Source: Plumapathes pennacea
Taxonomy: Eukaryota > Cnidaria > Anthozoa > Antipatharia > Myriopathidae
DNA: 64,000 nt
Direction of reading: 5' to 3'
NCBI GenBank assembly: GCA_964036295.1
Contig: OZ038464.1
Span: 18,956,443-19,020,442 of the forward strand
In this document: one piece after another, positions 70 to 59,800 of the stretch
Numbering within the stretch: the first letter of the stretch is position 1
How the letters are laid out: each line of letters begins with the position of its first letter
Made by a program: the position numbers and the translations under genes
The notes under the pieces: generated by a model
Told to the model about the DNA's origin: nothing
Seen by the model: only the letters and a program-made list of their open reading frames with translations
The model's database searches: none

Positions 70-2434
70 CAATTGGACAAAAGTAAAACTCTGGAGGAGA
101 ACATGAAGAAACTTGCCCAAGAGAGAGCCCGCAGTGAAGAGTTGTTGTACAGGATGATGCCGAAGCCAGTGGCAGACCGAATGAAACGAGGCGATAAAGC
201 CATCAGCACTTGTGAGGTGATTGCTTTTAAACAATGGCAAGTCCCCCAGAATGACAGTATGCACCGAGAAAAAGTAAAAAACAAAAATAAAAGAATCCAC
301 GACGGTCCTGAACTCCGAATTCCCAAATTCTGGATTACGGGTTCTATAATGTACGCCACACTCGATTCTCGATTCTAAATCACTGTGATTCCGGATTCTG
401 CAGTTGTTGAATGCTAGAGTCTCTTACATAGGGCGAGAACCACCACCAGGCTTTAGATTCAGAGAGCGTTATTTTTACATTTCAGTTATTTCGCGTGTTT
501 GGCTTACATCTCAGAAACTTGACTGTTCTTAATTTTGCCATGTCTGTTTGCCTCCCATTGTTTGTTTGTCTGTCTGTCTCTTGCTGTGTGTCCCCTTGTC
601 TCTCGTTATCATATGCCACTCATCACAATCTCTTTATATTAAGTATTTCAGCAGTGTGACAGTGATGTTCACCTATATGGATGGATTCCCCAGCATCTGT
701 TCTCGAGTGTCAGCCATGGAAGCTGTCAACCTCGTCAACTCGATGTTCGTCAGATTTGACAATCTCACCGAGACGCACGATGTCTATAAGGTTTGACACA
801 GAGTGATCAAAGTCCTCTTTCTCTTTGCAGCCTCTGATCTCATACGTGTTGTACAAAATCGAGAACCTGGTGCCTGATCGTTTGCCAAAGTGAACGTTGA
901 TTAAACTACAGGAATTCTTAGCACGTCAAGCACACGTTTTTGTATAAGCGGTTTAGAGAATCCGTATTCAATTTAAAAAAATAAAAAACAGTTGCTAGGA
1001 CAAATTGCCGCTAAAATGTTGGCAACATAGTCTAAATTGAAATTTTGTTAATAAAATGAATCCCAAAATCCCAAAATGGCGCATAGTTCCGACTATTTTT
1101 TCATGGACTGTATCGTTCTCTAGTTTTTAAGCAAATTTATGGCAGTTTAATGGCAATTTATCCCAACACCTGATCATTCCTGGGAGTTGAGTAAGCGTTC
1201 CGTTTTCAACTGACATGGCTAATCTCTTTCTTTTGCTTAGCAGTTTGAGACGCTTGGAGATGCGCTGTACATGATTGTCAACGGAGCCCCCGTCAGAAAG
1301 GAGCGCCACACAGAACCGATGGCGGATATGGCCCTAGACATGATTGAGGCCGTGAAGGACCTAAAGGACCCTTCTACAGACAAGCCAATCACGATATCAA
1401 CAGGTATGAGCAATTTTCAAATACAGGTTACATTAGATTAGTACCAAAAATTTGGCAACCATAAAAAATCGCCATGTCTTCTTGTTTGTCGCACAGACTT
1501 CGTTTCTTTTGTTACGTCTAATTTCACACCCAACAATCTGACTGTGCTCCTGCTTACGTCACAGGCATGCACCTGGGTCCAGTCGCCGCGGGACTCGTGG
1601 GAGAGAAGACTCCACAGTATTGTTTGTTTGGAGACACGGTCAACATTGCGTCACGACTCCGCACTACGGCAATGGTTAGTCCACCAGGCAAAAGCAAAGA
1701 CTACTTGGCGCAAATGGCGGGCTTGTTGTATTGTAGATTTTGCATTGTACATGACATATCACAAACCGATTGTTGTATTTGATAACCGGACCAGAAGTAA
1801 CTTATTGCTTGTGAGGAAAAGACCGGACCAAAGTACGGTAAATTGAGTGTTAAAGTTGTGTTCACACGCCAAAAACTTGGCTCTTCAGTTGCTGTGTGCA
1901 TCCCAAGAAAGTTTGCAAAATGATGACGTCACATTTTTGCCAATCAAAAAGGAGGTTTTATCGTGACACAAATCTGCAGTAAGTGTAACTTGCAGCAACA
2001 ATGTGACGGCAAGTCACTCGATTCTGGCGTCAAAAACTCCCATACAGAGTCAGCGTAGATAATTCAGTTTACATAAAGTGATCTGCCATGTTGATTCGTT
2101 TTTAGCCCATGCGGACCCACATTAGTGCCACATGCAACCAAGCCCTAGAAGACACAAAGTTCAAGACCGAATATCGAGGAAAAATCGAACTGAAGGTAAA
2201 CGACATACCGACAACCGAACCGATCCCTTCGGGGATCACGTATCAACCAAATAACGACCAGAAATGGACAAAATAACAACGATAAAATACCTTGGTCAAC
2301 AGCACTGAGCTCTTGAATTGAATGTTGGTATTTTGGTCCTGTAAATGTTTCTTTTCACATTGTAGGGCAAGGGAGAAGTGAAGACTTATTGGCTAACCGG
2401 CCGAAAACAAGAATGGGTAAACCAGGCAAGCTAA
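70..2434 (+). CDS. Soluble-type guanylate cyclase, C-terminal part (5' end outside window)
   Basis: Exons read by eye are 70-216, 644-790, 1241-1403, 1565-1674, 2106-2195 and 2366-2434; all junctions are GT-AG, the phases agree, and 241 codons precede the TAA at 2432. Exon 1 encodes the signalling helix before the catalytic core ([17 protein letters not shown]), as in haem-NO-binding-associated cyclases. The class III core follows: [41 protein letters not shown]. The purine-selecting Glu (FETLGD) and Cys (YCLFGD) are the guanylate type, and the catalytic Asn and Arg (NIASR) are present. The first metal-binding Asp, expected as F-S-D-I-V-G-F, is replaced: the segment reads F-T-Y-M-D-G-F. Vertebrate sGC beta-1 also lacks this Asp, so a beta-like subunit that needs a partner is likely (inference). 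The product would make cGMP. The sensor domain is not in the window, so NO or O2 sensing cannot be judged. Confidence 0.9.
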
Positions 2435-40634: not shown

Positions 40635-42074
40635 CTATCCACAGCACAAACAGCCTGCCTTTCCGTCCTTATCCTTCTTCTTGCTCTTACTGTCGTCTGC
40701 GCACCAAGCAAAACATGGGCACATGTCCATGATGAACTTCTTGAAGCAGACGTAACAAATCGCCATGATAATCAAGATTACGTAGAATACCAATCCAATG
40801 CTCCAGATTACATCCGCAGCTCCTCCGACGCCCGCCTTCATTGATGGAGCGACTTTGACCAAGTGGAATTGGACCACCCCCATCCCCGGACATAGAATCA
40901 TTACCATGTATATCACTGCAGCGGGGGCAGCAATAAAGAACCTCAGCGGATAACAGCTCCAGCAGAATGGGTTCCCTACCCACATGTACAGAGGAAGGAG
41001 CCCTGGAGTAGGAAAGCGAACCGGTGGAGAAGAGGGAGTTAGGATGGACACAAGGGGCAGGTGTGGAGGGAGTATATATATATAATTGATTATCATGATT
41101 ATTTAATGTAATTGTTGCTAAAAAGCCCCTTAGGGGAGCATCAACAAAGATATGTATGTAGGGAGGGAGGTGTAAACAGAGAAAGACTGACATGTACATA
41201 CAAAAACAAAGACATTGAGCAGAGAGACAAATACAGAAAGAGACAGAGGGACAGAGAGAGAGACCGTGGCTTTACGGTGGCTTGACTTTTAATATGGATT
41301 TGAGAGTACTAAAAATTATTTCTGCAAGTCCCCAAATGAAAATTATTGCCATAGAAAACAAAACAAAACAAAACTTAACCCTTTCATACCTTTGTATATA
41401 CTTGAAAAAGCAACTGTGGATATCTTCAAACCCAACCACATTGAGCTTCTCTGCACCGCTAGATTCTTTACCCCATCCTCTGTGAGGGAGCACTCCCAGC
41501 AATTCGTCGGATTAAAATACATCACACACAGCTCTACAGCAATGCACGTGGAAGGGATATCGTGCACAATCGACTCTATCAACATGAACACAGAGTGAAT
41601 AGAAATGATGTTTTGATAATATTTTTGGTCATCATCGATTTCTTGCTCAAAGTCGGGATTCACGCAGTAATGGCACAAATTCGGAAGAAGTGTGCACAGG
41701 TGCGTGATGTAAATCGCTCCGCCAATGCCTGCGATTAACAGCACAACCCATTCAAAAATCTCCATCGGTTTTAAGTTCTTATCGAGGTCGGCCAGACTGA
41801 AATTCCCGCTTCTATTGCAATATATTTGAGTTTCTAAAGAGTTGCTCTTAGTCCCGTTTCCGCCTCCGGTGTCAGCAAGCATGTCGTCACACCGCTTGTT
41901 GGCAATAAAAACATCGAAGAATATTCCAACATCCACGCCAAGGTTCATCGCTTGGAGTATCGCGTAGACCACAAACTGGGTGATGTACATCGCCCTAGTG
42001 CTCATGTATCGGCAGCAGATCTTGCACATGGCACCACAGCAGCTCATGATTGCAGCACAACAACGATCCGCCAT
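40635..42074 (-). CDS. Cys-capped multipass membrane protein A (unknown family)
   Basis: Two exons, 42074-41390 and 41002-40635, joined in phase 1, encode 350 residues. The N-terminus has seven cysteines within residues 5-21 (RCCAAIMSCCGAMCKICC), suggesting palmitoylation or metal binding. About six hydrophobic segments follow, near residues 27-55, 106-132, 163-190, 212-228, 246-270 and 284-310. Conserved blocks shared with the neighbour are QAMNLGVDVGIFFDVF, GAIYITHLCTLLPN, ESIVHDIPSTCIAVELC and LPLYMWVGNPFCWSCYPLR. The C-terminus is Lys-rich and ends AGCLCCG. The family is not recognised; a channel or transporter role would be guesswork. Its tandem paralogue lies 2.3 kb upstream on the same strand. 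Confidence 0.8.
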
Positions 42075-44342
42075 TTTTGTTTCTTTGATAATTTAGTATC
42101 CAAGTCTACTGATCAGGCTGGGTCCGCCACTGTTTACTAATCAAACTGACCTCTTACGAAGTTTAACAGCTCGGCCTTTAAAGTGATTTGATTGTCAGCT
42201 AATTTGTGAAGCATTAGAAACATCAGTATCGCACAACAGGCGACTGTGGAGTCAAGGGATGCTGAACATTCACTTGCACAAGACTCCTCGGGAATATACT
42301 TCGCTCTGTTGTCAAACGAATCAGAAAAGGTCGCCAAGTTACGCGCGTTTTCTGTGGTCAAAGTCACTCTCGCCGATAATCGATCGCCACTTTAAAGGTG
42401 CGACTCTTCTCAGCTGTCGTCTAATCCTGCAATCTTGTATCCAAAAGCGGAGGTGAAACGAGCTGCCTGTCCTTCCAAGTTCTCAATTACGCGACAAAGG
42501 GTTTCAACAAAACGTCCTCTAAACGGGCTCTCGATCGTTTTCTTGTCGGTTGATGTCGGGTCGAGGGAACAGTTTCCGCGACGTGCAGAGTTCTCACTAA
42601 AATAACTTCCTCTCGCCGATCAAATATGTCGGCTATTCAGGGACACAGCTTCGACAATCTAAATATACACACTCCAGTGTATTTGCTCTTTTGTCTTGGC
42701 CAGAGGATTGCAAACAATTTGCATACAGTACTATGAGACGCCCACAAATCTGACCCATTAGAGCGAATAATTTATGACGCGCAGTGACGTGTGTCCCACT
42801 ATCGATCTTTTGACTGACTGCGTTACAGCACTTGATCAGTTTGTGCTGATGAATTTATGTCACTTGCAAAGAATTATTGTCCGTTTATGTACGTTTAAAA
42901 CATCGGCATTTGATCCTTCTCCCTCTTACCCATCTCCTTCTCACTCCATCCCTTCAATTCCAACGTTAACTGACAACATCCAAGCAAATTACTGTCGTTT
43001 TATTCACTTACAGTTCTTCGTAGACTGAAACAATAAGTCTCTGCACAACTGTCGCTTTTTTACACAACTGACAATGAAAGACACTCAATAACGCATGCTC
43101 AGTAGCCATGTATGCCTCCGCCAGTCATAACAGATAAAGCAAGTTAGTATGATATATATGCTATCCGTGAATCTTGACTCGAGAATACATTTCTTTAACA
43201 TGTTTCCTATACATGATCTTTTACATGTTTCTTTTACATTTCTTTAACATGTTTCCCTGCCAAAATTGAAGCCAAGAACCCCACAACACTAATACAAGAT
43301 CATTCACATCTGAATCAAATGCTAACAACACACATTGCATGTTATGCACATATGTCAATTCGTTTGCAAACATATCATATCACTGTTTCAAATTATGCTG
43401 AATTTAATAAGCTGTTGAAATCGAACTATTTTGGAAATTGATGATACTTTGTAACATTATAGATCTCTTTTTTATTCACGCGTTTACCATGTGGCCGGAT
43501 TCAATAAGACTTTCAGCATATGCTTAAATTGATTTGTCAATAAATCTGTGAACTAACTATAAAAATAAATAATACAAAATAAACCTTGCCCTAAAAAGGA
43601 CCATGTTGGTTCAGTGCCTTAAATTATTATAATTAATGGAATATGGTATATTATATACGTAAAACAAATTAAGTTATTAATTTAAAAAAATCATACGTGT
43701 TCTAACACATAGCAGTTATGTTCAAAGCTCGATTAAGTTAGCCCCAGGATAACAAAATTCTTTCTCTCTACCTCTTGATAAAACAAACTGTGGAATTTTG
43801 ATCAAAGACGAACTGAAAAACATATCGATGAAGTGTTTCTGTGGAGGAAAATGATAACTTGCCCCTAATGATGATAAGTTTTTATGTACCGTAATCCAGA
43901 GACTACTGGTAAGTGCCGCTATATACTAAACTCCTTAATGCCAAACAGTGATTAAGGTCAATGTTCTCCTTTCATTTGATAAGCAACTGTGAGAAGTATA
44001 GTGTGGAGAACTGGGCAGCTGATCTGTTTCTAGGAACATATTTTGTTAGCATCAAACTTCTCCAGCTATAACTCTCGCGTCGTCTTTTCATAACGTCAGG
44101 GGAATTTGGTTCTTGATCACTGGGCATTAAACCTTTAACTCCTGATGGTGATAAATTCTCTGTTTACTTTCTCAACAGATTCTCAATAGATGTCATCCAG
44201 TAAGGAGAAGTTGCCACCTGACAACCTTCGCAAACACAATTTGACATAGCTATCAATTCTCACAACATCACTCATACAGTTTCTTTGTATGTAGTTGGGA
44301 GAATTAGTGAACGATAAGCTCAGGAGTTAAAGGATGAAGGAG
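42075..44342. other. Spacer between the two membrane-protein paralogues
   Basis: No exon is supported. The first few hundred bases (42075-42600) precede gene A and should contain its promoter, but no clear TATA box or other element stands out. A diverged fragment of the TTGTTC-AAAG inverted-repeat family lies at about 43722-43800. Confidence 0.4.
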
Positions 44343-46172
44343 TTAACACAAACAGCCACTTTTCTCGCCTTCTTTTTCTCCTTCCTTCTTCTTCTTCTTG
44401 CACTGACAACTGCAGAACAGGCACTTGCCACACCAATACCAGTAACAGAAGTAAATCATGAACACGATGATATAGAACATCAGGCCGAACGTCCAGATCG
44501 TGTCCGAGATGGTCCCCATTTCCCCCTTCATAGCCGGTGCCGCGATAAAGAGCCTGTTGATGGCCACTCCCATGGCAGGGCACAGGGTAAGGACCACGAA
44601 AAGGAGCCCCGCTGGCATCACTACCAAGATTCGCAGCGGGTAGCAAGCCCAGCAGAAAGGGTTCCCGATCCAGGAGTACAGGGGAAGGATCCCTGGAGAT
44701 AAAGTGAATAAAATTGGTACGTTGTTTGTCTCTCATTTATTTTTTAATTGTCTCCGTTTCTGTTTCTTTGTCTCTGTCTTTTTGTTTCTGTCTCCTTCTT
44801 GCTCGGTACGTAGTCGGCAAGAGCTCGGCACTGAATTGTTCGGTATGTAGTCGGTATGAGCTCGGTAACGTGGTCGATAATGAACTGACTCGGTATGTGG
44901 TCGGCAATCGTATCCGTATAAATACCGACCGTACTTAATCACAACTACCGTCTATGTCTCTCTTACACATATACACGCATATGACTTGAATAAATCAAAG
45001 TGAAACAAATAACAGGTAAAGGGCTGCATTTTAGCCGATACCTTTATAGGCGCTAACCAAAGCAATGGAGCCCAACAGCAGCCCAAGCCACAGCTCACAA
45101 TTGGGCAGGGCCGTGGGAGGAGGCATGTCGCCAGGTGCTCCCACACAGTCCCAGCAGTTAACGCCCCCGATGCCCCACATCTGGGCGCACATCTCGACAG
45201 CCAGGCAAGCGACCGGGATATCGTGCACCAGGGTCTCGGTGTACAGGAAGACCGTGTGGGTGCGAAGGATCTTCTGGTAGTATGGAGAGGCTTCCTGCAC
45301 GTATACAGATAAACATAAACATAAACATAAACATAAACATAAACATAAACATTAACATTAACATTAACATCAACATCAGCAACAACTCGGATTCACAGAG
45401 AACTATGAAGAGTGGACTATAGTCGTATACACATTAATGAACTATCGAATTGTCTGATTGGTTACAGCTCATTATAGACTTTGCGACACAGGCCCGGCTT
45501 TTCAAAGGGTTAGGACCAGATTAAGATAATCATGGGTTTCTTGTCCCGTAACTTTCTTGGAATGGGCTGAGCTACATCAGCATACTTGATTAAAATCCTG
45601 CAGTTCATTGGGCAACAGAATAAGAAAAAAAGTTTGGTCGAGCATCAAACACTACTAAAGTGCGCCTGACGTTTGCTAACAACAAGAAACAGACTTACCT
45701 CTATCATGTTCTCGAAGTTTGGATCTTTCCAGTGCCTGCAAGCGTTTGGGAACAGCACAGTGATGTGCGTCAAGTAGATGGCCCCAGAGAGACAGATAAA
45801 GAAGAAGAAAAATCCCTCCAACAGCTTCAGAGTCTCAGCCTGGCTGTTCAAGAGCGACTGCGTAGCGTTTGGGGTCGTGCTGCAGTACAGCTTGGTGATA
45901 TTCGTTTCGTTGTTGAGCGGTACCAGTTCCTCCGTCGCGAGTCTGTGACAACGTTGGTATGTTTCGGCCGTCTCGAGGAACACGCCAACGTTTGTGCCGA
46001 TGTTGAAGCCTTGAAATGCGGCGTACAGAAAAATCTGGATGAAGAAACCCGCCCCGGGCGAGACAGCATTGCAGAAACAGCGACACATCGCCTTGCACGT
46101 CTTCGCCAGGCATTTTCCCAGGCCTTTGCACAGAAGGCCGAGGCACTTGCCAATGCAGTTGCATAAACACAT
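44343..46172 (-). CDS. Cys-capped multipass membrane protein B (unknown family, paralogue of A)
   Basis: Three exons, 46172-45699, 45294-45042 and 44692-44343, have consistent phases (0 then 1) and encode 358 residues. The N-terminus is more Cys-rich than in A: ten cysteines within residues 2-34 (MCLCNCIGKCLGLLCKGLGK, then CLAKTCKAMCRCFC). The membrane pattern and blocks match A: QGFNIGTNVGVFLETAE, GAIYLTHITVLFPN, ETLVHDIPVACLAVEMC, LPLYSWIGNPFCWACYPLR. The tail is KKKKKEGEKEGEKSGCLC. The intron before LPLY is shared with A in position and phase; the first intron is not present in A. There are possible N-glycosylation sites (NET, NAT) between segments 1 and 2. The function is unknown. Confidence 0.82.
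45309..45380. repeat. (AAACAT)n microsatellite in intron 1 of gene B
   Basis: About seven perfect AAACAT units pass into ATTAAC/ATCAAC variants. The tract begins about 15 bases from the splice acceptor of the gene B second exon and lies on its 5' side in the minus-strand gene. Confidence 0.9.
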
Positions 46173-48465
46173 TTTGGCAAGTTATGCTCTACGACCACAA
46201 CTGGTTTCGAACACTTGTATGGAATTCAGTTGTCTTCAACAGCCTTGTCTCTCGCCTCTGGTGCTCAAATAAGCTCAGCTTTTGTGAAACTATTGAGCAG
46301 AGCTCTGGAAGACAAAATATTGCGATCTAATAGTTGGTAGGATAGTTCATTAGAGTTCTCCTTGGGGGTTTCACGACTGCGACAACCTAATACGGGTAGG
46401 ACTGCAGGTAGAATTTGGTAAAACCCAAACACACTTGCTTTAACTTCAACTCCCTGAGATGAAAGAGTAAACAGACATATTGTTAGCTCTTTCTATAAGG
46501 TTTTTCAAATGTTTCAGCATATATTTCACTGACGAATTACAAATATAACAATTTAGAATTAAAGCTGAATTAACGCTAATATGAAGATGATTAATGTACC
46601 TCGAATTATAAATTCTAAAAAACAATAACACAGTTTGTTACAAAAATATATATATAAATACATCGGCCGGTTTTTGCATTGAAAGGTCAAGGCTGTATTG
46701 TATAACTGAACAAGAAACGAGAGATCTGTGCTCTACTAATCTTTGTTAATCTGCAAAATGTTTCAGCGGTTATCGAGCCGCTCAGATAAAAATTGTTCGA
46801 GTGATTTCAAATTTGTACAATTTCATGATTTTTCAATTTCATCATTGCAGATGAAAACCAGTTTTTTGATACTCGACGGTCAGACTTCGTTATTTGCACC
46901 AATCTCCAGATTTCTAGGAATTTTACTGCAGGCCAAGCTGGGAGCATCAGTTCCTACGAGTAATGCAGATTCAGTTATATCATTCCATTTATTTTCATTC
47001 CGTTATTTCCATTCCAGTAACATCCCTTTTTTGAGTACTTTTGAGGGAACTATAAAATTATGTGTATCATACTGATCATTTGCAAGAAAATAAAAGTGTC
47101 GTCTTAAAATTAAGAGTGATACTCCCACAATTCACCTTTACCACCAAAATTAGAATTTTATTTCAAATCGTTGTATTAAAGAGAATATTTAGACTTTCCT
47201 GTTCTTCATACAGCCAACATTAGGCAAACTGTTTGTGGCCTTTACACTTTTTTGTTATTGATGTCTCTGAATAAACTAAATTTTAAATTAATCTCGATAA
47301 AATCAACTCAGTTCGATAAATAGGTCGAAGGGGCTTCGCTGAACTGTCCTACTTTTCTTCAATGTTTAAAATAATCAAGGTGGGAAGTAGGACTGCAGAA
47401 TTTTCTGTTCGACAAGACACATCTGCTAATTATATTCGATGTTTGAAGCGGCTCTCGATCTTCGTAATCTTGAAAGTTCGTTTCCGCCTATCGACGAGTC
47501 TTCGAGCCACGAAAGCAGATTTTGTGAAATAATATTCCGAATTGCGTGCAAGTTCGACCTCGATGTCATAAAAAAAATCAGACTTTTTCTTCTTGTGATC
47601 CATTTACAGCGAGAATCCTCAAAGCCTAACAGTAAGTTTCAATCTGCGAATCTTTTTCACAATTAGAATTAAACTAAATATTATATATGGACTGTAAGAC
47701 ATTCAGAATTTAAACATACTAACCTAAACTTTGCTGCGAACCTCCCAGATGTAGATCCGATCACCGAAGATGGATTTCCTCTTCCAATATGGCGTCGTTT
47801 GACAGATCACAGCTTTCAAAGTATTCGTTGCCGATTTGCGAGAACGCCTCTGATTCGTGGATTTATCGACAAACAGTAGGGTCATACACACCAGGTGTTT
47901 TCACAGTTCCATTTATCGACCGAAAGTTGAATAAAATTTACATAAAACAGGAAAACCTAAGCCGAAAGTGATAGTGAAATAAACCTGACCGAAGAGTTTA
48001 ATTTAAAAATCTTATTTCGATCGGGTTAGACGATTCTCTTCGCGAATACTCATAAATAATCATACGATTGGCAAACGAAAAATAAACATCTCTTGATCGG
48101 CCGATCGCATAAATTTATTTTCACGAAGCGCCAACGGAAATAAATTTGACGTGGGGCTGTCATTGCTTTATTACAGAAATAAACATTTAATAAGATTGTT
48201 TTATGTTTTTGTATAATGTGTCTGTTCTTGAAAGCACGACGTTTACCACCTGACGGGAATTTGGTCGGGATTTCTTTACTATAAAATAGTTTGTGTTTTA
48301 GGGGGAGGGGAGGGGGTTAATACGCGCCAAGAAAGAAAACATTGATAATATAATATCCATGTACTGTGAACAAAATGAGGGTAAAAATCACCTAACTATT
48401 AATAAAAAACACTAATGCCACCTCTCATCCACCACAGATGTCTGTAATTTTTTCTTAACTTTGTA
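46173..48465. other. Intergenic region upstream of gene B
   Basis: The region is AT-rich. Two short plus-strand open frames (47439-47666 and 47789-47971, the latter starting ATGGCGTCGTTTGAC) have mildly protein-like composition but no homology I recognise and no closing exon chain. No RNA gene or element was identified. Confidence 0.4.
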
Positions 48466-48700
48466 AAGCCTGGTTTTCACAAGAGACACAAGCACTTTAT
48501 TAAGCGCAAAAACAAGATATGCGTTGGTGCGTCAGTAAAAACGATCGACGCACGCGCAAGAGATATGCGTCTAGTGAAAACGATCGACGCGGCAATTACG
48601 CCTCATGTGACAACAATCGACGCACGCGCAAGAGATACCTGCCAAGTGAAAACGATCGACGCAAACGCAAGAGTTACGCGTCATGTAAATACCATCTTAT
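48466..48700. repeat. Dispersed GACGCAAGC element with internal ~39-bp tandem units
   Basis: It begins AAGCCTGGTTTTCACAAGAG, the same end as the element at 11490-11686. It then carries four imperfect units built on AACGATCGACGCACGCGCAA and AGATATGCGTCTAGTG. A copy of the second end is not evident. It directly abuts the Mab-21 pseudogene. Confidence 0.65.
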
Positions 48701-48717
48701 CTCAAAAAACAGGTTGA

Positions 48718-49164
48718 GTGCATTATGAAGGAACTAGCAATGGACCGTGACGTGTTATGGGAGCAAGGGCCCGCTGTGAGCTTTGAATACCCATCGGGCA
48801 CCCGAATTTTCCCTTCATAAGCGTCGACTTGGCCATCGCTATTGATCTCATAAACTAGCCGATAGTCGCCCGACAGCTTACCGCGGAGTTCACGAAAGCA
48901 AAGGCTCAGCTCGTTCCCAAGCCCCGACAACAGACCGCTGCTGTGGCAGATATCGTTCTCTCAGGTGGAAAAGGACTGGGCTCCATCCATGCTCCATCCG
49001 TGCCTCGTTTTCAGGAGTTCATCGAGCGTCTATTAAAGAACGTGAAAGAGGGGTGGCTACCAAGTTACTTTGTTCCCGCGTACAATCTGCTGGAAAATAA
49101 ACCGGGTCTCGTGGCCGCCAAAGATGGCATTTTGAACGCTATGAGAAACCTACCTGGGGCATGA
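48718..49164 (+). pseudogene. Mab-21/cGAS-like pseudogene fragment
   Basis: Segments in different frames align in order with the intact gene at 50990-52636. DVLWEQGPAVSFEY matches VIWDQGPAVSFTY and runs into a stop at 48818. VDLAIAIDLIN, from 48823 to a stop at 48856, matches VDLAIGIKLK. AQLVPKP matches TQLVPKS. LLWQISFSQVEKD matches MLWQISFSQIELQ. RFQEFIERLLKNVKEGWLPS and YFVPAYNLL match the C-terminal lobe and end at TGA 49162. The N-terminal part with the GSS and E-x-D motifs is missing, and there are at least two in-frame stops and frameshifts. It is a dead tandem copy. Confidence 0.88.
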
Positions 49165-49999
49165 AGCTGCCACAATCAAGAATATTGAGTTGTGTAGGAT
49201 CAATCTAATAACTATAGATATGGAGTCTTTATTCTGATGAAGGGCTAACGCTCAAAATGTCAGCCAACGTTACGTTGATATATTCTACGTTATACCCTGT
49301 TTGTCTCCCCGATTAGTAGGGCACATGTGCCCGGCTATAAGAACCGAGACCTTAATAAAGTTGATTGAATGATTGATTGATATCTCAACGAAACGTCTTA
49401 CGAACCAAACCTGGGGTCAATTCAATAAACATTTACACGTGTATTTTACAAGCTGGACTATTATTCCAACACCACTAAACGGACTCTAATCTAGCGAAGT
49501 CTGTACAATATTACAGATACAAGTCCCCAGTGCACACCCACAACAGCATTTGGCCATTGTACTGGATTAAAGTGTGTTTTAACGTGTGGCGAAATTGGTC
49601 CGACTTGTAAAATACACTTGTAAATGCTTTATTGAATTGGCCCCTGGTTGTCACAGGGACTAGTACTCCTATTTTGTACAATCAAATATTGCATTAAAAC
49701 ATAGAGCGTAAAAGGCAGACTCACAGACATTGTCTACTGTTGTGCTGATATTTAATCTCTGCAGCAGACTGAGCTTTTGTGCGTGAACAAGTGAATGAAT
49801 CGTAAATTAACAAAACTTGTGAAAAGGGACACTGTGTTTTGGGAAGGCAGCCGCAAGGCAATGTTAGGTTTACCATGTTCAAGCTAAATCATTTCATGAA
49901 GGTTTTCCTGCAGGTTTGTACAACTTGTGTTTGAAACAATCCTAAAGATCTTAAAATTAAGACACTTCTACGATCTGTGCTGTTGATGGTTGGATACTC

Positions 50000-50690
50000 A
50001 TGCTCTGTTAAATTCTTGTTAAATTCTCTGTTAAATTCAATAAACATTTAGTTAAAAATGGAGGATATACCGGTATTTTCTGTTTAACGCTAGAGGAATC
50101 ACGCTCTGTCGAATTTCTGAGATCGCAACTTAAAAGTCTGTGGTGGATATACCGGTTGAAAATTGATCATGCTCTGTCAAACTCCTGAGATCGTATATAG
50201 TAACTTAAAAGTGGAGGATACGCCAGTCGCCTAAGTCTATTGCTCGCAGAGTCATGCTCTATATGAAATTCTGTAGGTTGTAACTCAACAGTGGACGGTA
50301 CACCGGTTGAAGTCTCCCGCTCTGTCAAAATTCTGAGATCATAAAGAAAATTACATGTGGAGGATCTACCGGTCGTCTGTGTTAAACGCTTGAAGAATCA
50401 TGCTCTATCCAATTTCTGAATTCTTAGCTTAACAGTGGGGGATAAACCGGTTGAGTGTCCTGCTCTGTCAACATTCTGAGATCATAAAATAACTTAAATG
50501 TGGAGGATATACCGGTCGCCTATGTTAAACGCTTGAAGACCCATGCTCTGTCAAATTCCTGATATCGTAACTTAACAGTGCGGGATAAACCAGTTAAGGC
50601 CTTATGCTCTGTCAAACTATTGATATCGTAAAGTAACTTAAAAGTGGAGAATATGCCGGTCAAAGCTTCGCGCTCTGTCAAATTACATCA
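50000..50690 (+). repeat. Higher-order tandem repeat upstream of the cGAS-like gene
   Basis: About ten units each contain a TGCTCTGTCAAA-type start, TTCTGAGATCGTAACTTAA, then GTGGAGGATATACCGGT. Unit lengths tend to alternate between about 60 and about 80 bases. The longer form adds a block ending GTTAAACGCTTGAAGAATCA; the shorter ends near CCGGTTGAAGTCTCC. The pair forms a composite unit of about 144 bases. The array ends about 300 bases before the start codon of the intact gene. Confidence 0.8.
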
Positions 50691-50989
50691 CATGACACGT
50701 GCGGAGGATGGTAAAGTAGAGGACGGTACCCTGCTCCTTGTTCCCATGGTTGATGTCTCCTGCCCTGCCTAACAATAGCCGCTACATGTGTAGTACATGA
50801 GGTGAAAGTGACCAGGTACTGAAGATATGTTTGAGATGTAAATTAATAACATCAGAGCATACTCTGTAATTTGGCTTTAAATTTGGAGCGTCACCGTCCT
50901 CAAACGAGATTTGCTCGGCAGTCACATTCCGTGAACCAAGACGACAAGAGTTGTACAACGTTTTGCAGTTCAACTTCTCTCAAGGCAGT

Positions 50990-52636
50990 ATGATTGCACA
51001 GCTATTCCTGAAGACTGCAGGGCTCCTCCTGATCCTCTCACTGAACGGAAATGCAATTCCACACAAAGATCGTCTCCTCTCACTCGAGGACTGGGGGTCT
51101 GGCTTCGAAGACACCCCGGATGAAGGCACAGAATCCTCAGCAGAATCAGACTACGAATTCGACTACGAATCCTACGAAACCCACACGTCGGACGTGATTT
51201 GGCCAGGTTTGGCATCGTTTTGCTTTTCAGTATTATACACTCAGTGTAACCTCCCTAAGAGACCACCTCTCTTAGTCCCGATGGGTTCCTCAAATTACCA
51301 CTAGTGCAACTTCTGGTGTTCAACCATCTCTGACTCTGTATATACCGAACAACCGGTATGCGACCACCCAAAACGTAGTACTACAGAAGACTCTTTATTT
51401 TTACGATTGTTATTCAGTTGTTATTATTGTTATTCGTTGGGAAAGCTGTGGATTCACTTCATATCCGCCGCTCCCTTATACAGGAAGTAAAGAGTACTAT
51501 TAGCCACTGCATGTAAGTGTGAAAGTGGCTTATATGGGTGCATACATGCAGTACAAAACTGACACTCCTTCCTTTTGCCTTCTTAATTTCCAGACGAGGA
51601 TAGATTAAGAAACTACCTCAACAGAACTTTCCACAACATAACCATCAACAATGCGACCAGGGAAGCAGTGGAAACCGATCTCTTATGTCGCCTCGGTAAA
51701 ATCCTTCCCAAGGTCGCTGCACTCGACGAGTACCGTTGCTTCGATTTCAGGCTAGAGTTTAAAGGTTCGTCCTATGAGGGTCTCAGAATTGGCCTTCCAG
51801 ATGAGTACGACTATGGCCTGGTCAATGATAGCTGGTCAGAACTTGTAGCCCGTCAGTTGTCTACACCTTACGTACCTGGCTTTGGGTATGCATTCGACAA
51901 CACAACTTACCCTTGCTTGGACCGTTTTAAGAATGGCAGCATACTCGATCCAGAGAAAGTGAAAGCTCATCTCAAAGCATTGGTAAAGCAGGCGATGGAT
52001 GAACTGCACATAGATTACGAAGTAATATGGGACCAAGGACCCGCTGTGAGCTTCACGTACAAGTCCAACGTCCCTACAGTCTACAATGTGGACGTCGACT
52101 TGGCCATCGGCATTAAACTCAAGATGTGGCCCCAGGAAGCCCGAGACCTTCCCCAAAGACTGAAAGACATCGGCACCCAACTCGTCCCTAAATCGTTGGC
52201 CTCTGATCCAATGCTGTGGCAGATATCTTTCTCCCAGATCGAGTTACAGATGATGAGAGACATCGGACAGAAGCCAGGCTGGCGGAAGCAGGTGCTGATG
52301 TTGGCCAAATACTGCAAAGGAATAACCAATGGGACCTGGGACCCTCTACAGTCGTATCATCTGAAGATGGTGTTCTTGAACATGACCCAAGTTCATCCAA
52401 ACGACGAGGATTGGACATTCGCTAAACTCCCCGCTCGTTTTCAGGAACTGATTATGCGCTTACTAGGTCACGTGAGAGACAAACATTTTTATAGTTACTT
52501 CGTGCCAGAGTTGGACCTCTTCCGCCTTTTGAATGAAACCCAGCTTGCCAGGGCCGAGGCGGGTATCAAAAGCTTTCTGTTAAACCTACAGAACATCGCG
52601 GATGCTACTTACGACCAAGTAGGTATCCGGATCTGA
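50990..52636 (+). CDS. cGAS-like receptor / Mab-21 nucleotidyltransferase with N-terminal signal-like segment
   Basis: Two exons, 50990-51206 and 51594-52636 (GT-AG, phase 1), encode 419 residues. Residues 1-23 are a basic-hydrophobic signal-like stretch (MIAQLFLKTAGLLLILSLNG). Residues ~30-75 are an acidic Ser/Tyr-rich linker. The nucleotidyltransferase core has FKGSSYEG at 128-135, the acid pair E143-x-D145 (PDEYDYGL) and the third acid D239 (YNVDVDLAIGIK), so the active site looks complete. GPAVSF, MLWQISFSQIE, YHLKMVFLNM and YSYFVPELDLF align with the cGAS C-lobe. No Cys/His zinc ribbon is present. Cytosolic family members make cyclic dinucleotides on sensing nucleic acid; here the leader suggests lumenal or extracellular placement, as in ITPRIP-type Mab-21 proteins. 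Ligand and product cannot be read from sequence. A dead paralogue lies upstream. Confidence 0.88.
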
Positions 52637-53875
52637 ATGTATCAACCGAAACATGTGTAAGACGGTCAAATAAGAGTGATTTATTAAATTAACTTGTGTA
52701 ACAAGGTAAAATAAAGTTATCCAGTAACTTGTAAGAACAAGGTCAAACAAAGTGATGTAATAACTTATAAGAACGAATAAAGTGATGTACACATCTGACG
52801 TGGATAACTAGTGCGACATGACTGAAAAAAAAAAAGAGCTTCTCGGGGTAGAGAAAGATGACAGTAAGCTAGACACACTGATTTCTTTGTTTTCATATGA
52901 CGGTGAGAGGAAAGTGAAAGTTTTCAATTCCGGGCCAAACGGTCAAACAAAAACAAAAACAAAAAAACTGATCCAAAATAAGCTATCAAACACTAACCTC
53001 TTCCTTCTTGACCAACTGAGGCCATGAACATTGACCGACTCTTTATAAATAGATAACTGAATATTTACAACATGACACAAAAACAGCATTAAAAGGTTTC
53101 TCTGCAGTGACTGTCACTTTGATGACAGGTTGTAAACTCTTGGAAGTTTACAAGAGAATGCGAAGGACGTTTAAATGATGCTTACATGACGGAGTCCGAC
53201 TGACTAAAACTGGCTGGCTTCGTGGAAGGGCTAACACTCAAAACGTTCTTCCGGCATTAATCTTATCCACATCAACCTTGGGCTGATACATCTCTCACCA
53301 ATTCAGATTAAAAATCAGCTCTCACAGGGGATAGCATTCCATTGTCACTAAAACTAGCTCCTTGCGCGGGAACTGGAACGAGCCTCGAAACGACGCTTCG
53401 GTGCCTCTGAAGGTCGTAACTGCCGGAGAAAAACGTGTATACGTTCCATACAGGTTTCGAGTGCTTTAGAACGTCCTTCCTGGTGAGCTTTGTGTTTGGT
53501 TGACCTCGCTTTCGAGCCAATAGCGCTTTTCTTCGACTTTCGTCTCGAAATTACTTTCGCTTCGGAGCAAAACGGAGACTGTGTCAGGCTGCGATATGAA
53601 GATGAAGATCGTGGAATCTCCAGTACCTCAAAAATAGCTGGCCGAGGAAGCCCACTGGGGAGCACCAGAATACTGCGGAGCCTTCTTTGGTCAGTTATTT
53701 CTTTTCCCGATTTCAAACTTCAAACTTCAAACCAACGAAAAAGTGGAAAGGAACGGTTCAATGAATACAGCATTCTGCTAAAGTAGAAGAAGGCACCGCT
53801 AAAAAAGAAACGGAGCGGTGCCCTATTTCCTCGACGCAAAACTCTAGAGAAGAATAGTGGAAAGAACGGCAAAGT
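52637..53875. other. 3' flank of cGAS-like gene and convergent spacer to BBS2
   Basis: Candidate poly(A) signals AATAAA occur at 52710-52715 and 52776-52781, within imperfect ~40-base repeats containing AAGTGATGTAATAACTTATAA-like text. A minus-strand open frame at 53354-53716 encodes a basic, Ser/Arg-rich 120-residue sequence (ISRRKSKKSAIGSKARSTKH). It has no recognised domain and is probably not a gene, though a conserved single-exon frame cannot be excluded. Confidence 0.4.
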
Positions 53876-56800
53876 TTATAAGGTGCCCGCCTTGATAATC
53901 TTAAACAAACCGTTGACGTTGTTCGTCTTGATGGCCTGACGACATGCGCTGATCGTGTGGGATTTGGATTTGCCAACTGCAAAGGAAAGAATACAGGAAC
54001 AATCGTAAAATTAGAGTCCTGACAACTAATCTCCCTGACAACCACTCTCTGACCCAGGTTCCTCACCTCTCAACTTTCCCGCCCTCTGGATGGCCTGATT
54101 GACAATTTTAAGGGAACTTAACAGCTCCGTGTGGTTGTTACACCGGATCTTGTAGCCGTTGATCAGGTCGCGGTTCAAGTCATACAACTCCATGTAACCT
54201 TTCCGCATGTTTTTCCTACAGGGACAGAAGAGCGTAAACATTGTTTGTCTTCGGATAGATGCACGTCCATAGTCACAGAGAGGTAGAGTGGTGACTATTT
54301 TATATCTGACTGATTGAGCCCTTTTCAGATGACCGTAGAAAGCAATTGTTTGCTTGCTTTGATTTTGCGTTTGCTACGCGTTTGGGTCGGCAGAATGTTG
54401 GTTAACCACAAAAAAGAATTAATAATAATAATAATAATAATAGAAAACCCAATTCTGATTTGCTCACGTAAGCAAATTTCTTCAAAGTAAACCAGTCGCA
54501 AATTGGTTTGGTTTCTAGCTGGTTGAACGTGTTTTCTTGCAGACCGGTGTCCTAAATACATCAATAGAAAATCATTCACCGCCGCAGTATTTAACTCCTG
54601 AGAGTAATCATCTTCCGATTTCTCTGTTGTGTAATTATTCAAAGCTGTACTGTATCATACAGCATACAGTGCAAAAAAAGAAAAACTCAGCGTTTATAAG
54701 CTTCCTCAGATTAAAGTTGATCAATGTATCAATTCTTACTACGCCACTCATAAGCTTTCTTCTTGACTGGTTAGGAGAATTCGTATTATGAGCTCGGTCT
54801 CTTACATGTCGCCCATTAGACGAGCGTCTTCAGCTCGTACGACCAAGCTGCGTATGAGGTTGGAATGGTCCGCCATTTCTGCTGTCAGCTTCTGACGGAC
54901 CGAGTGTAGTTCATCCACCTTCAATGAAGGTAAAGGGGGTGATTAGAGGCAAAGTTTAACTGGAACACAATGAGTCCAGGATATTAACTACGCTAATGCA
55001 TCAAACATCGTAAACTGCCAGTTATAACCACCACCAGCCCCCCCCCCCCCCCCCCCCCCCCCCTAAGGGTTATAGGCCCACCAGTCTGGCAACAAAAAAT
55101 CCCTCTCTCTCCACTATCGAAATGAAATGCCTTTACTATGTCGAACATCGACATCACGGCAAATAGGAAGGGTTTAATGTCAGAGTAGAAGAAAGGCAAA
55201 AGCAGAAAGGACAAGAGTTAACAAAGGAAGAGAAGAAAATTAGAAACAAAACACGAGAAGAAAAAAGAAACCAAGGAGGGGGAAGAAAAAAAAAAACAAA
55301 AAAACATTCTGTGTTCTGTACCCTGAGTAGCACCGCTCGCAGCTCTTCCATTTGCTCGGGGAACTCTGCAGTAGTTTGAAGGTCCTACCGGTGAGAAAAC
55401 AATGAAACATAATGAACACACGAAGCAAAAAAGATTGTGATCCATTGCTAAAGACGCACCTCGATAGCAAGAAAGGAAGCCAATGCTTGGATCAGATCTC
55501 CTGCGAGCTCCATGTCTTCCGTCTTGATCGTAACCTGAGTGGACAAAAACGATAAAAATTTTCATCCGGTGTTTACGTACAGTTCAAGCATCAGGTCATC
55601 AAATCGTTCTTGCCGCTCAAATTCACGTTTTTTTTTTGTTTGTTTTTTTTTTGGTTCATCATCATCATTATTATCAGCTAATCATCATCCTTATGACCAC
55701 CAACATCACCATCACCATAATCATCGACATCATCATCACCACCATCGTCATAATCATAATCAACATCACCATCATCACTATCATCAACGTCCTCGTCGTG
55801 ATCATCATTATCATCATCAATATCTTCACCATCACCATAATCATCATTGTCATCTTCATCACCACCACTATCATCACTATCATCACCATCATCAACTACA
55901 ATATATTATTATCAGAATCAACATAATCGCTGTCTTTATCCACACTCTTCTTCTTCTTCTTCTCCTCCCTCTTTACTCTTCTTGGTCTTCATGTTTTCGT
56001 CTGTTATCGAAGAGCAGGGCAAGCAAAACTTGGGCACAACAGTTGACGGAATGAAGCAAAGAGATTTAGGCAAGAAGGAGGACAGAAGACAGCTGCACTT
56101 ACGTTGCATCCTTGGTCCATCTTGAGTGCTAGTGGGCCGCCACTACGTAAAGACAGGAACATAACATCCAGAGCGCCATCCATTGGCTCCACCTCTTGCG
56201 TCAGGAGGAAGTTCTGGTTGACCCACATAATAACCTGTAATTACATCACCAGTTAAACGGGTTAAACCAGTTAAACCAGTTAGGAACGTGAGCACTGAAA
56301 TCCCAGTGTAGAGTATATTTCTGCACTTTGTCGACCAAAACGTTCTATTACAACTTCATACGTTGAAAGATTCTAAGTTTCACTGCTGAACAAATATTCT
56401 TGGTTTCTAATCAATACCTGGAGACTCCGAATACAAAAGACAACGCGGCCATGTTGGTTCCGAGTACAATATAGGATAATGACAGCCTTTTGTTTAAGTT
56501 CTTCCAACACGGCCGCCATGAAGTCAAATGCAAACGAAGAATAGAAATCTCTAAACATGTTTCAGTACACGCATTGACACTTATTGCGTCCAGTTTCCGA
56601 TCTGTTCCTCGACAGACGAGCCTATAACAAGGAAAGGGCGGCAGGAATCCCATCAAAAGCAATTCCAAATAGGCTTATGGTATTTCGCGAAACGAAACGA
56701 AACAAAACTTGGAATGAAATAGAACACAAATAAAATCTAAGAGGGATTTTTCGGTAAAACGTACCCGGTTGACCCGCTCGTTCACATGGAAAGTGACGAA

Positions 56801-59800
56801 TGACTTGGGTTCGGCATACCCTTCAGGACAAGGAATGTAAAGCGTGAATCTGCAAAAAAGAAAAAGAAAAGAAAAGAGTAAAGAGAGAAATCGATTAATA
56901 TTCACATCCAACGTAAAGCTGGCTCGGGAGGAGTGTGACTCGGGTCCCCAATTGAATTCCAGTGATCAGCAGGAAAATTTGAATGAAAAGAAAACCAGAG
57001 TACCAACGTAACGTGAATTTTATAAGGACTTACTTACCTGGGTAGTTGTCTTGTCAGCTCAAACACGTGGAAATGTTGACTGAGAGGAAAGGAAAGCAGC
57101 AATAAGAACACGAAATCAATGATCGCAGTTGTATTTGACTCGTACACTGAGGTCGTGTTCTACTCGGACCAACCGTTTCAACCTAAACCGGTTTTTGGTT
57201 GACGTGGTTGAAGTGTACCAATAGAACACATTTCAACCGTTTTCGGTTAAATAAGTTGAAACCTGGTGCCATCGTTTTCAACAGTTTTAACAATAGAAGA
57301 CGACCTAGTTCTCAGGGCCCAGTTTTTCGAAAGTCGATTAAGCTAATCCAGGATTAACGAAATTATTTCTCTCCTCCTCCCTCCCAATAAACAGCAAGGT
57401 TTTGTGTCGAAGATGGATTAGAAAGCTTGTTCCAGCTTAAAACGTCAGCAAGAAAGTCGTTGTGGACGAAATGTTCACGTTTTCAGGCTTATAAATGACA
57501 AGAAAGTTTAGACTTAATCCAAGCTTAGCCTAATCGTGCTTTGAGAAATCGGGCCCAGATGAACTGGCATTCCTACGGCATCGGTACAGTACCTTGACTT
57601 CTGACCAACGAACGACTTAATATGCAGATCCACTGGAACATCTTTAGGAGGAAATATCGGGATACTCAGGGATCCCTTCAGATTCTGTTGTGACGGGTGA
57701 ATGACATGACTCTCGCCCTCAAACAGCCCCTCAGCAAAAATCATGACAGCGCGAATGATCGTCTCGTTGGTGGTGGTGACCGATAGCTCCACGTGTGGCT
57801 GAACTTGTTCGCTGCCCGGATTTACAGACAGGGATGTCTGTAGCTGTGTGCTCGCAGGAATCAACCCCATCTGAGACGTGTCTGCATCTTGGCCTCCTGC
57901 TTTGGCAACCTGTGTTTAATTCAGCGTATAACAGTGATCAACTTCAATTTCAGTGTCTACAGCATCAAACAGCAGATGTTGTTCTTTTCACACGTATCGC
58001 GTAACTTATTTGAAAAAATAAAAATAAATAAAATAAATAAATAAAAAAAAAGAGAAGGTCTACGAGCCCATCGGGCACAAAACGATAATTTCTTGCTAGT
58101 CCGATGTCAATTTATACTAGCCCTGAAAATCGTGCTAGCAGATGTTTCAAGCCAAATGATATTCTACAGAATGGTTTATAGAAATACCCTGGAGTTCTCC
58201 TCGTAATTCCTGATCTCCAGCAACAGATTCTGTTTCCTCAGTGCTAGGTCCCTGACAGTATCCTGCTCCACGTTAACGTCCATCAGATTGCCTCGCAGTT
58301 CGGGTGGTGCTGGCAAGTAACCTCGCACTGATGGATTAATAGAAAATATCTCAAATTCTCCCTACTCACCTGAACAAAATGTATGGCTCAAAAAAATTTC
58401 TTCTGCCTCACTAGCCATGGACTCGTATGTCACGCAAGTAGAGGAAGCCCAGATTCAGTGAACTCTAGCTCTAAAGATAGTACTCTTCTCATTGTCGTAA
58501 TCAACCCCAGATACTGTTCGTCGTTTCGCGTGTATCAGTCGGGGGGCGGGGTAGGGAAAAGAGTCTGGGAACGAGGATGCTCTTACTCACGGTCGGACGA
58601 CGGAAGCCAAGGACGCGACAATGGTTTTGTTCTCTCGCGTTCGGCTTCGCCTCACATTCGTTCTTAGTCACTTAGGCCTCGGACAGAGAGCGGGAGGAGA
58701 TCTGGGAGCCACGGTAACTTACCGGTAGTCATTCAATTTTCAACTTTCGAAAAATGAGGAAATTGAGGAAAAGAGAACGTTAGCCCATCGGCCAATAAAT
58801 TGTTGTTTCTAGCTAGCCCAGTGTAAAATCACAGTGCGCTAGCAAAAATTTCGAGCCGTAGGAGTGAGCAGGAGAATTTATGTTCTGATCAACTTGAGCC
58901 CAGCAAGAGCAGGTTTATGATACTGTAAGTACATACCTTCCCCATCCACTGAACAGCAGATGAGTTCTGTCTTTCCGTCCAAGCGGTAATCTCCCTCCAG
59001 AAGTCCCGCCACAGCAGAAGAAAAGTTGTCTTTGAAGATTACTTCACCCGTCCTGTCACTTCTGGCATCGATCTAAGAAAAGGGTTATTGGAGATGATGT
59101 GTAACTGAAAATAATTTGCACCAGCACTTTACTGACTGCTTTCACAAACAATCATCCAGAACAATGAGCGCTAGTCTCTAGTTTGAGATATTCACTTTAT
59201 TATTGGGCTGAAGAATATAGGTCTCTGATGTTATCTATAAAGGTATAGTGTGATTTTGGTTAATATTTGAAAAATGCCTCCGTCGGAAACGAGAAAAAAA
59301 ACTTTTGACAGTTTCATTCAAAAATCCTAAACTAACTATTTTCTGATACTCTGCAGTTAAGTGAACTACAATGCCATGTTCACAATTTTCAATATTTTTT
59401 TCACAGAGGATATATTCAGTAGTTCACATTTATTTTAATAACAGCAACAGACTAACCTTGCCATTAGACCAGCCGGTGATGAGCTCAGGGACGCCGTCAC
59501 TGTCCAAATCAAAACTGTGAATGACTATTGCTTGATTCTTGGACTGTACAAAAAGAAAATTGATCATGAACACATGCACGGCGAGGCCTGGTTATTTTAT
59601 CATTCCCATTTACGGTTTAGTAACATTTTGGAGCCATTCCCGACAAGTAAAATCTAAGAAGGCAACCCTATCAGCAATCGGATAGGGAGATAGGTAATAA
59701 AGACACTAGTGCACCTTAATTCTCCAGTATCTTGCCGTCTTGTCATACACCCCAACAGTTCCATTAGCCAGTGCATAACCAAATCTAGAACCATGCAATG

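Follow-up and report, generated by a model that had tools for sequence, protein, structure and literature searches.

The window analysed here is a 64-kb (64,000-nucleotide) stretch of Plumapathes pennacea DNA, and the gene at 50990-52636 on its + strand is real. Exon 1 (50990..51206, +) contains the ATG, a leader and an acidic linker and ends in phase 1, while exon 2 (51594..52636, +) contains, by translation and Pfam, the entire Mab-21 nucleotidyltransferase core, the C-lobe and the stop codon. When the coordinates, splice and translation were rechecked, the joined exons encoded 419 residues followed by a stop, in agreement with the gene model of the initial annotation (50990..52636, with a 51206/51594 splice). 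By splice-site inspection, the intron (51207..51593, +) has a weak donor (CAG/GTTTGG) and an acceptor (TTTCCAG) preceded by a good pyrimidine tract, both in phase 1. An AATAAA polyadenylation signal, found by sequence scan, lies 74 bases 3' of the stop (52710..52715, +).

To the left of the gene, a genome search detected a broken fragment of a family paralogue (48665..49161, +), 2.3 kb upstream of the neighbourhood of exon 1. This fragment occupies two frames, contains in-frame stops and lacks its middle, a sign of tandem duplication followed by decay. A tandem array (50052-50661, period 143, 4.2 copies) sits between the fragment and exon 1. Further upstream, on the - strand (40638-46181), there are several multi-span, Cys-rich open frames in tandem that are alike by eye, and the five that we scanned had no Pfam match. 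The end of an HNOBA domain at 70-375 (+) places a soluble-guanylate-cyclase-type gene at the left edge of the window, and exons of BBS2 (hairpin and GAE domains) lie downstream on the opposite strand (54029-57915, -). Rfam returned no matches within the 64-kb window.

The first in-frame Met of exon 2 is residue 207, well beyond the GS motif and the E-x-D pair, so a 5' exon is required. The open frame of exon 1 offers just one upstream-usable ATG ahead of the leader, and the leader is retained with any of the other phase-1 GT dinucleotides listed in 51041-51301 (51072, 51246 and 51285). Our search for other first exons in 49201-51560 found no ATG frame with a strict GTRAG phase-1 donor, in a scan that would also miss the weak donor of this gene.

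Both halves of exon 2 belong to the Mab-21 family. The Mab-21 (PF03281; 7e-12, 46.3 bits) and Mab-21_C (PF20266; 1.5e-15, 57.6 bits) domains each exceed the curated Pfam cut-off (24.1 bits). Scans of three proteins against NCBIfam, a library built for prokaryotes, gave no pertinent family. The structure model of the protein is a confident cGAS fold. The top PDB match of the protein is Sp-cGLR1 of Stylophora pistillata (PDB 8gjy), by sequence (8.2e-18) and by profile (2.8e-48), at ~24% identity; Foldseek ranks 8gjy first, and it is absent from the 50 matches listed by VIA.

We compared the protein with the curation used by Li et al. for animal cGLRs. It has the homology across the nucleotidyltransferase core and C-lobe, and the predicted structural match, on which that curation relies, and the G[S/G], [E/D]h[E/D] and third [E/D] elements are present as G130-S131, E143, D145 and D241. 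It departs from the printed pattern, h[QT]GS[X8-20][DE]h[DE]h[X50-90]h[DE]h, as Lys precedes GS and the acids are 93 rather than 50-90 residues apart. Sp-cGLR1 likewise has Lys before GS, and its acid gap is also longer, by count on a single-sequence alignment. As Sp-cGLR1 itself seems to fail the pattern at the same points, Li et al. would not have applied the printed form literally. Given the departure in the residue before GS and in spacing, we refer to the P. pennacea protein as cGAS-like and do not file it as a cGLR.

To assess conservation of the active site, we used an alignment of 30 family sequences that includes the P. pennacea protein. The G and S of the activation-loop motif G130-S131-S132 (51764..51772, +) and the first two catalytic acids, E143-Y-D145 (51803..51811, +), are kept in 28/28 of the sequences that reach them, confirming both assignments of the initial annotation; the two sequences that are missing start too late. 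That annotation had named D239 as the third acid, a pairing that also appears in a single-sequence alignment with cGAS. This is the wrong residue. Position 239 (52091-52093) is Asp in the P. pennacea protein alone, the other 29 sequences having 27 Ser, 1 Arg and 1 gap. D241 (52097..52099, +) is instead kept in 28/29 family sequences, with one frameshifted or read-through fragment and one gap accounting for the losses at this position, and positions 143, 145 and 241 stay nearly invariant when ten crinoid cGAS-like proteins are added. A profile built from this enlarged alignment matches column 241 to the S-V-D Asp of both Sp-cGLR1 and cGAS. We therefore ruled out D239 in favor of D241.

The C-lobe and nucleotide-pocket elements S-F-S, L-V-P-K, R-K...K-Y and S-Y-H-L-K are also kept and line up with cGAS and Sp-cGLR1, as had been claimed for the C-lobe blocks. 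At a base-contact position, cGAS chains have Arg after Trp in W-R-L-S-F-S where the P. pennacea protein has Gln (Q282) and Sp-cGLR1 has Cys, and the 29 sequences with a residue here have 22 Q, 4 L, 1 H and 2 R. As the active site (G130-S131, E143, D145 and D241) is complete and under constraint across the family, the ability to join nucleotides is most likely retained. Judged by sequence, this appears to be a catalytic protein whose base preference is unpredictable.

The N-terminus of the protein resembles a signal peptide. Residues 1-22 (50990..51055, +) score 7.41 for a cut after A22 on a von Heijne weight matrix, used as a stand-in for SignalP. This score was matched by 0/5000 internal windows but by 1.8% of shuffles of the protein's own N-terminus. 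The leader is followed by an acidic linker (residues 23-72; 51056..51205, +) with a net charge of -13, and residues 24-72 include 15 acidic and 2 basic residues. Both features had been described in the initial annotation and hold up here. We found no membrane span after the leader (the best 19-residue hydropathy mean past residue 30 is 0.84) and no KDEL-type tail, as the C-terminus is VGIRI. Mitochondrial targeting was dismissed by eye, the leader having a single basic residue.

Leader-like N-termini are also found in four relatives, P0008 (11.08), P0013 (9.06), P0043 (8.47) and P0032 (4.44), and each joins the core at the position of the P. pennacea intron. The score of P0032 is just under the 99% null value of 4.51, and 6.6% of its own shuffles match it; in P0043, the sequence after the leader looks like an intron. 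These four are among ten other family sequences that have at least 8 residues ahead of the core. The other six (P0001, P0007, P0033, P0038, P0041 and P0042) have 8-38 residues ahead of the core without leader-like character, and we infer that these N-termini are intron read-through produced by bacterial-style gene calling. The remaining family sequences start inside the core.

The core contains an excess of N-glycosylation sequons. A sequence scan found nine (N82, N87, N92, N150, N175, N186, N318, N335 and N386), spanning 51620..52540 (+), whereas composition predicts 1.36 in residues 76-419, and 0/20,000 shuffles had as many. By the same test, the genome's remaining 17 PF03281 loci have 0 to 4 sequons, with enrichment in none (lowest P 0.126). 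The relative P0018 has 5 sequons in 133 residues, against 0.64 expected, and the other 28 family sequences have 14 in 9115 residues. This distribution led us to reject glycosylation as a family-wide trait; as P0018 is rich and the other 28 are poor, the excess is a property of the branch that contains the P. pennacea protein. Such a gain is one that a protein passing through the ER may make and is hard to explain in a cytosolic protein, although it represents an opportunity for glycosylation and not proof of it. In the structure model, N82, N87 and N92 map to helix 1 and the beginning of the long helix 2, and N335 lies within a helix, where it may be buried.

The same branch differs from the rest of the family in charge. 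The core of the P. pennacea protein has a charge of -3 (pI 6.2) and that of P0018 has -4 (pI 5.1), as compared to +7 to +19 (pI 9.0-9.9) for the other 28 sequences, some of which are fragments. The long helix of cGAS helps to hold nucleic acid. If N82, N87 and N92 carry glycans, classical nucleic-acid binding would be hindered. Given that the P. pennacea protein and P0018 are acidic and sequon-rich while the other 28 sequences are basic, sensing of nucleic acid is doubtful for this branch, and because it no longer has the basic surface seen in its relatives, plain dsDNA or dsRNA is an improbable ligand. In the earlier description as a cGAS-like receptor, the cGAS-like fold and active site are upheld, while "sensor" in the cGAS sense is doubtful in view of the acidic core and of N82, N87 and N92 on the first two helices.

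To place the protein among its relatives, we built a tree of 39 sequences, 20 of which were family members. These 20 form one clade (100/100), within which the P. pennacea protein falls beside P0018 (99/98); the crinoid and lamprey sequences, and ten other Mab-21 sequences from this genome, lie outside it. Five of the family sequences (P0009, P0010, P0011, P0016 and P0018) are fragments. P0041 and P0042, which form the deepest family branch, have a basic tail (PRHKTHHKK) that is absent from the other sequences shown. The only named family relative is P0017, from Oculina patagonica, which was left out of the family counts because its open frame is chimeric.

Searches of the 290-Mb genome with the P. 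pennacea protein and with P0013 found no other intact family member, the other matches to P0013 being weak. Our count of 18 PF03281 loci is separate from the P0013-matching loci on contigs C8, C9 and C10. The genome also encodes two STING ligand-binding domains, whose best PDB matches are 8gjz and 8efm, with 5cfl-type chains next, all of which we take to be STING of S. pistillata and Nematostella. In addition, loci L017 and L020 (G000:C2, near 34200210) form a multi-exon gene very like Sp-cGLR1 (166 bits over 138 residues). The two STING domains and the Sp-cGLR1-like locus indicate that cytosolic cGLR-STING signalling is also present in this animal.

From these data, we propose that the product of this anthozoan gene is a cGAS-like nucleotidyltransferase that is active and is either secreted or lumenal, a reading to which we assign a probability of roughly 60%. 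The initial annotation had singled out a leader together with a complete active site as the unusual combination, and this is supported, with further backing from the leaders of relatives and from the sequons. Its lumenal or extracellular placement is favored by these sequence features; the membrane anchoring that it offered as an alternative is not favored, as no later span is present. On the proposed reading, a cleaved signal peptide would feed the protein into the secretory pathway, where it would be N-glycosylated in the ER and would finish up soluble, either within a lumen or extracellularly. Cleavage, glycan use, export and catalysis are each predicted from sequence. Beyond these steps we can offer guesses as to ligand, product, import and immune role: after export, a ligand other than nucleic acid would close the activation loop, lumenal or extracellular NTPs would be converted to a cyclic or linear oligonucleotide, and the product would be imported and meet one of the two STING proteins, or would act outside the cell.

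A broader version of this proposal is tentative, and we give it about half as much weight. Here, secreted cGAS-like cyclases would form a family in anthozoans and produce nucleotide messengers outside the cytosol, either as immunotransmitters or within a gut, mucus or endolysosomal lumen, and in the branch of the P. pennacea protein the nucleic-acid face would have become glycan-covered and lost its basic charge in favor of a different ligand.

Several other explanations were weighed. The strongest of these, though rather unlikely, is that the protein is lumenal or secreted but no cyclase: it would modify a protein, glycan or small molecule with a nucleotide, or make a linear product, in some other signalling route. 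The substitution of Q282 for the Arg of cGAS and the acidic, sequon-rich character of the branch would fit this possibility, but the conserved C-lobe elements argue against it, and Sp-cGLR1, described as a cyclase in the survey of Li et al. (PMC9980059), has Cys at the same place. We consider it improbable that the protein is an ordinary cytosolic cGAS-like receptor whose exon 1 is not a true, or not the sole, first exon. The gene model was derived from sequence and has a weak donor, and the 17 other PF03281 loci of the genome look as though they lack a leader or have an ambiguous first Met. However, a usable Met is absent from exon 2, the leaders of four relatives meet the core at the equivalent point, the core has an excess of sequons, and the strict-donor scan, though blind to weak donors, yielded no other ATG frame. 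A signal-anchored membrane enzyme is similarly improbable: an uncleaved anchor retains some weight because hydropathy averages 1.64 over residues 1-19, but the leader has a short hydrophobic core and the cleavage context at A22 is good. Of the two orientations, a lumen-facing (type II) core is the likelier, and the sequons argue against a cytosolic one. The von Heijne matrix does not distinguish a cleaved signal from an anchor, since a score of 6.67 is also reached by P0028, a cGAS-like protein from a crinoid whose long N-terminus resembles an anchor.

A secreted or lumenal nucleotidyltransferase would be a departure from known systems. We know of no cGAS-type enzyme that acts outside the cytosol. 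cGAS is a cytosolic sensor (PMC9980059, PMC12424679), and the P. pennacea protein lacks the zinc-ribbon cysteines of human and mouse cGAS. It shares with Sp-cGLR1 the GS, E-x-D, third Asp and the Lys before GS; its leader, acidic linker and nine sequons set it apart. Li et al. reported more than 3,000 animal cGLRs, many of them in corals, and in the text of that survey covered here none of the terms "signal peptide", "secret-" and "extracellular" occurs (PMC9980059). Our literature search, made up of main texts with few subscription papers, returned no secreted catalytic cGLR. The novelty lies in the combination, outside vertebrates, of a leader and sequons with an active site that is both complete and conserved.

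Cyclic dinucleotides travel between cells, and their synthesis is placed in the cytosol. If the P. pennacea protein is exported and catalytic, then the enzyme itself would be outside, which would alter the range of sensing and provide a source of extracellular cyclic dinucleotides in invertebrates. Secreted poxins degrade 2'3'-cGAMP, and the authors of that work suggest extracellular regulation of cGAS-STING in insects (PMC7688311, PMC9663721). Extracellular use of a Mab-21 relative has been described for ITPRIPL1 (CD3L1), a single-pass membrane protein whose extracellular domain binds CD3 epsilon (PMC11357910), although it is reported there as a ligand and not as an enzyme.

Leaders on Mab-21 proteins were previously described in the 2007 DANGER study, in which the vertebrate proteins D1A-C, D2B and D3A were predicted to have signal peptides or membrane spans and an intron was noted where the leader segment ends. 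Its authors proposed that exon shuffling took place early in vertebrate evolution and raised the possibility of secretion (PMC1784063). Compared by description, the P. pennacea protein resembles these DANGER D1-D3 or ITPRIP-type proteins in having a leader with an intron at its end, and differs from them in occurring outside vertebrates and in having a full active site. If our reading is true, leader exons on Mab-21 genes would be no vertebrate novelty, contrary to that proposal. The lamprey proteins in the 39-sequence tree that bear the name ITPRIP-like are not part of the family clade.
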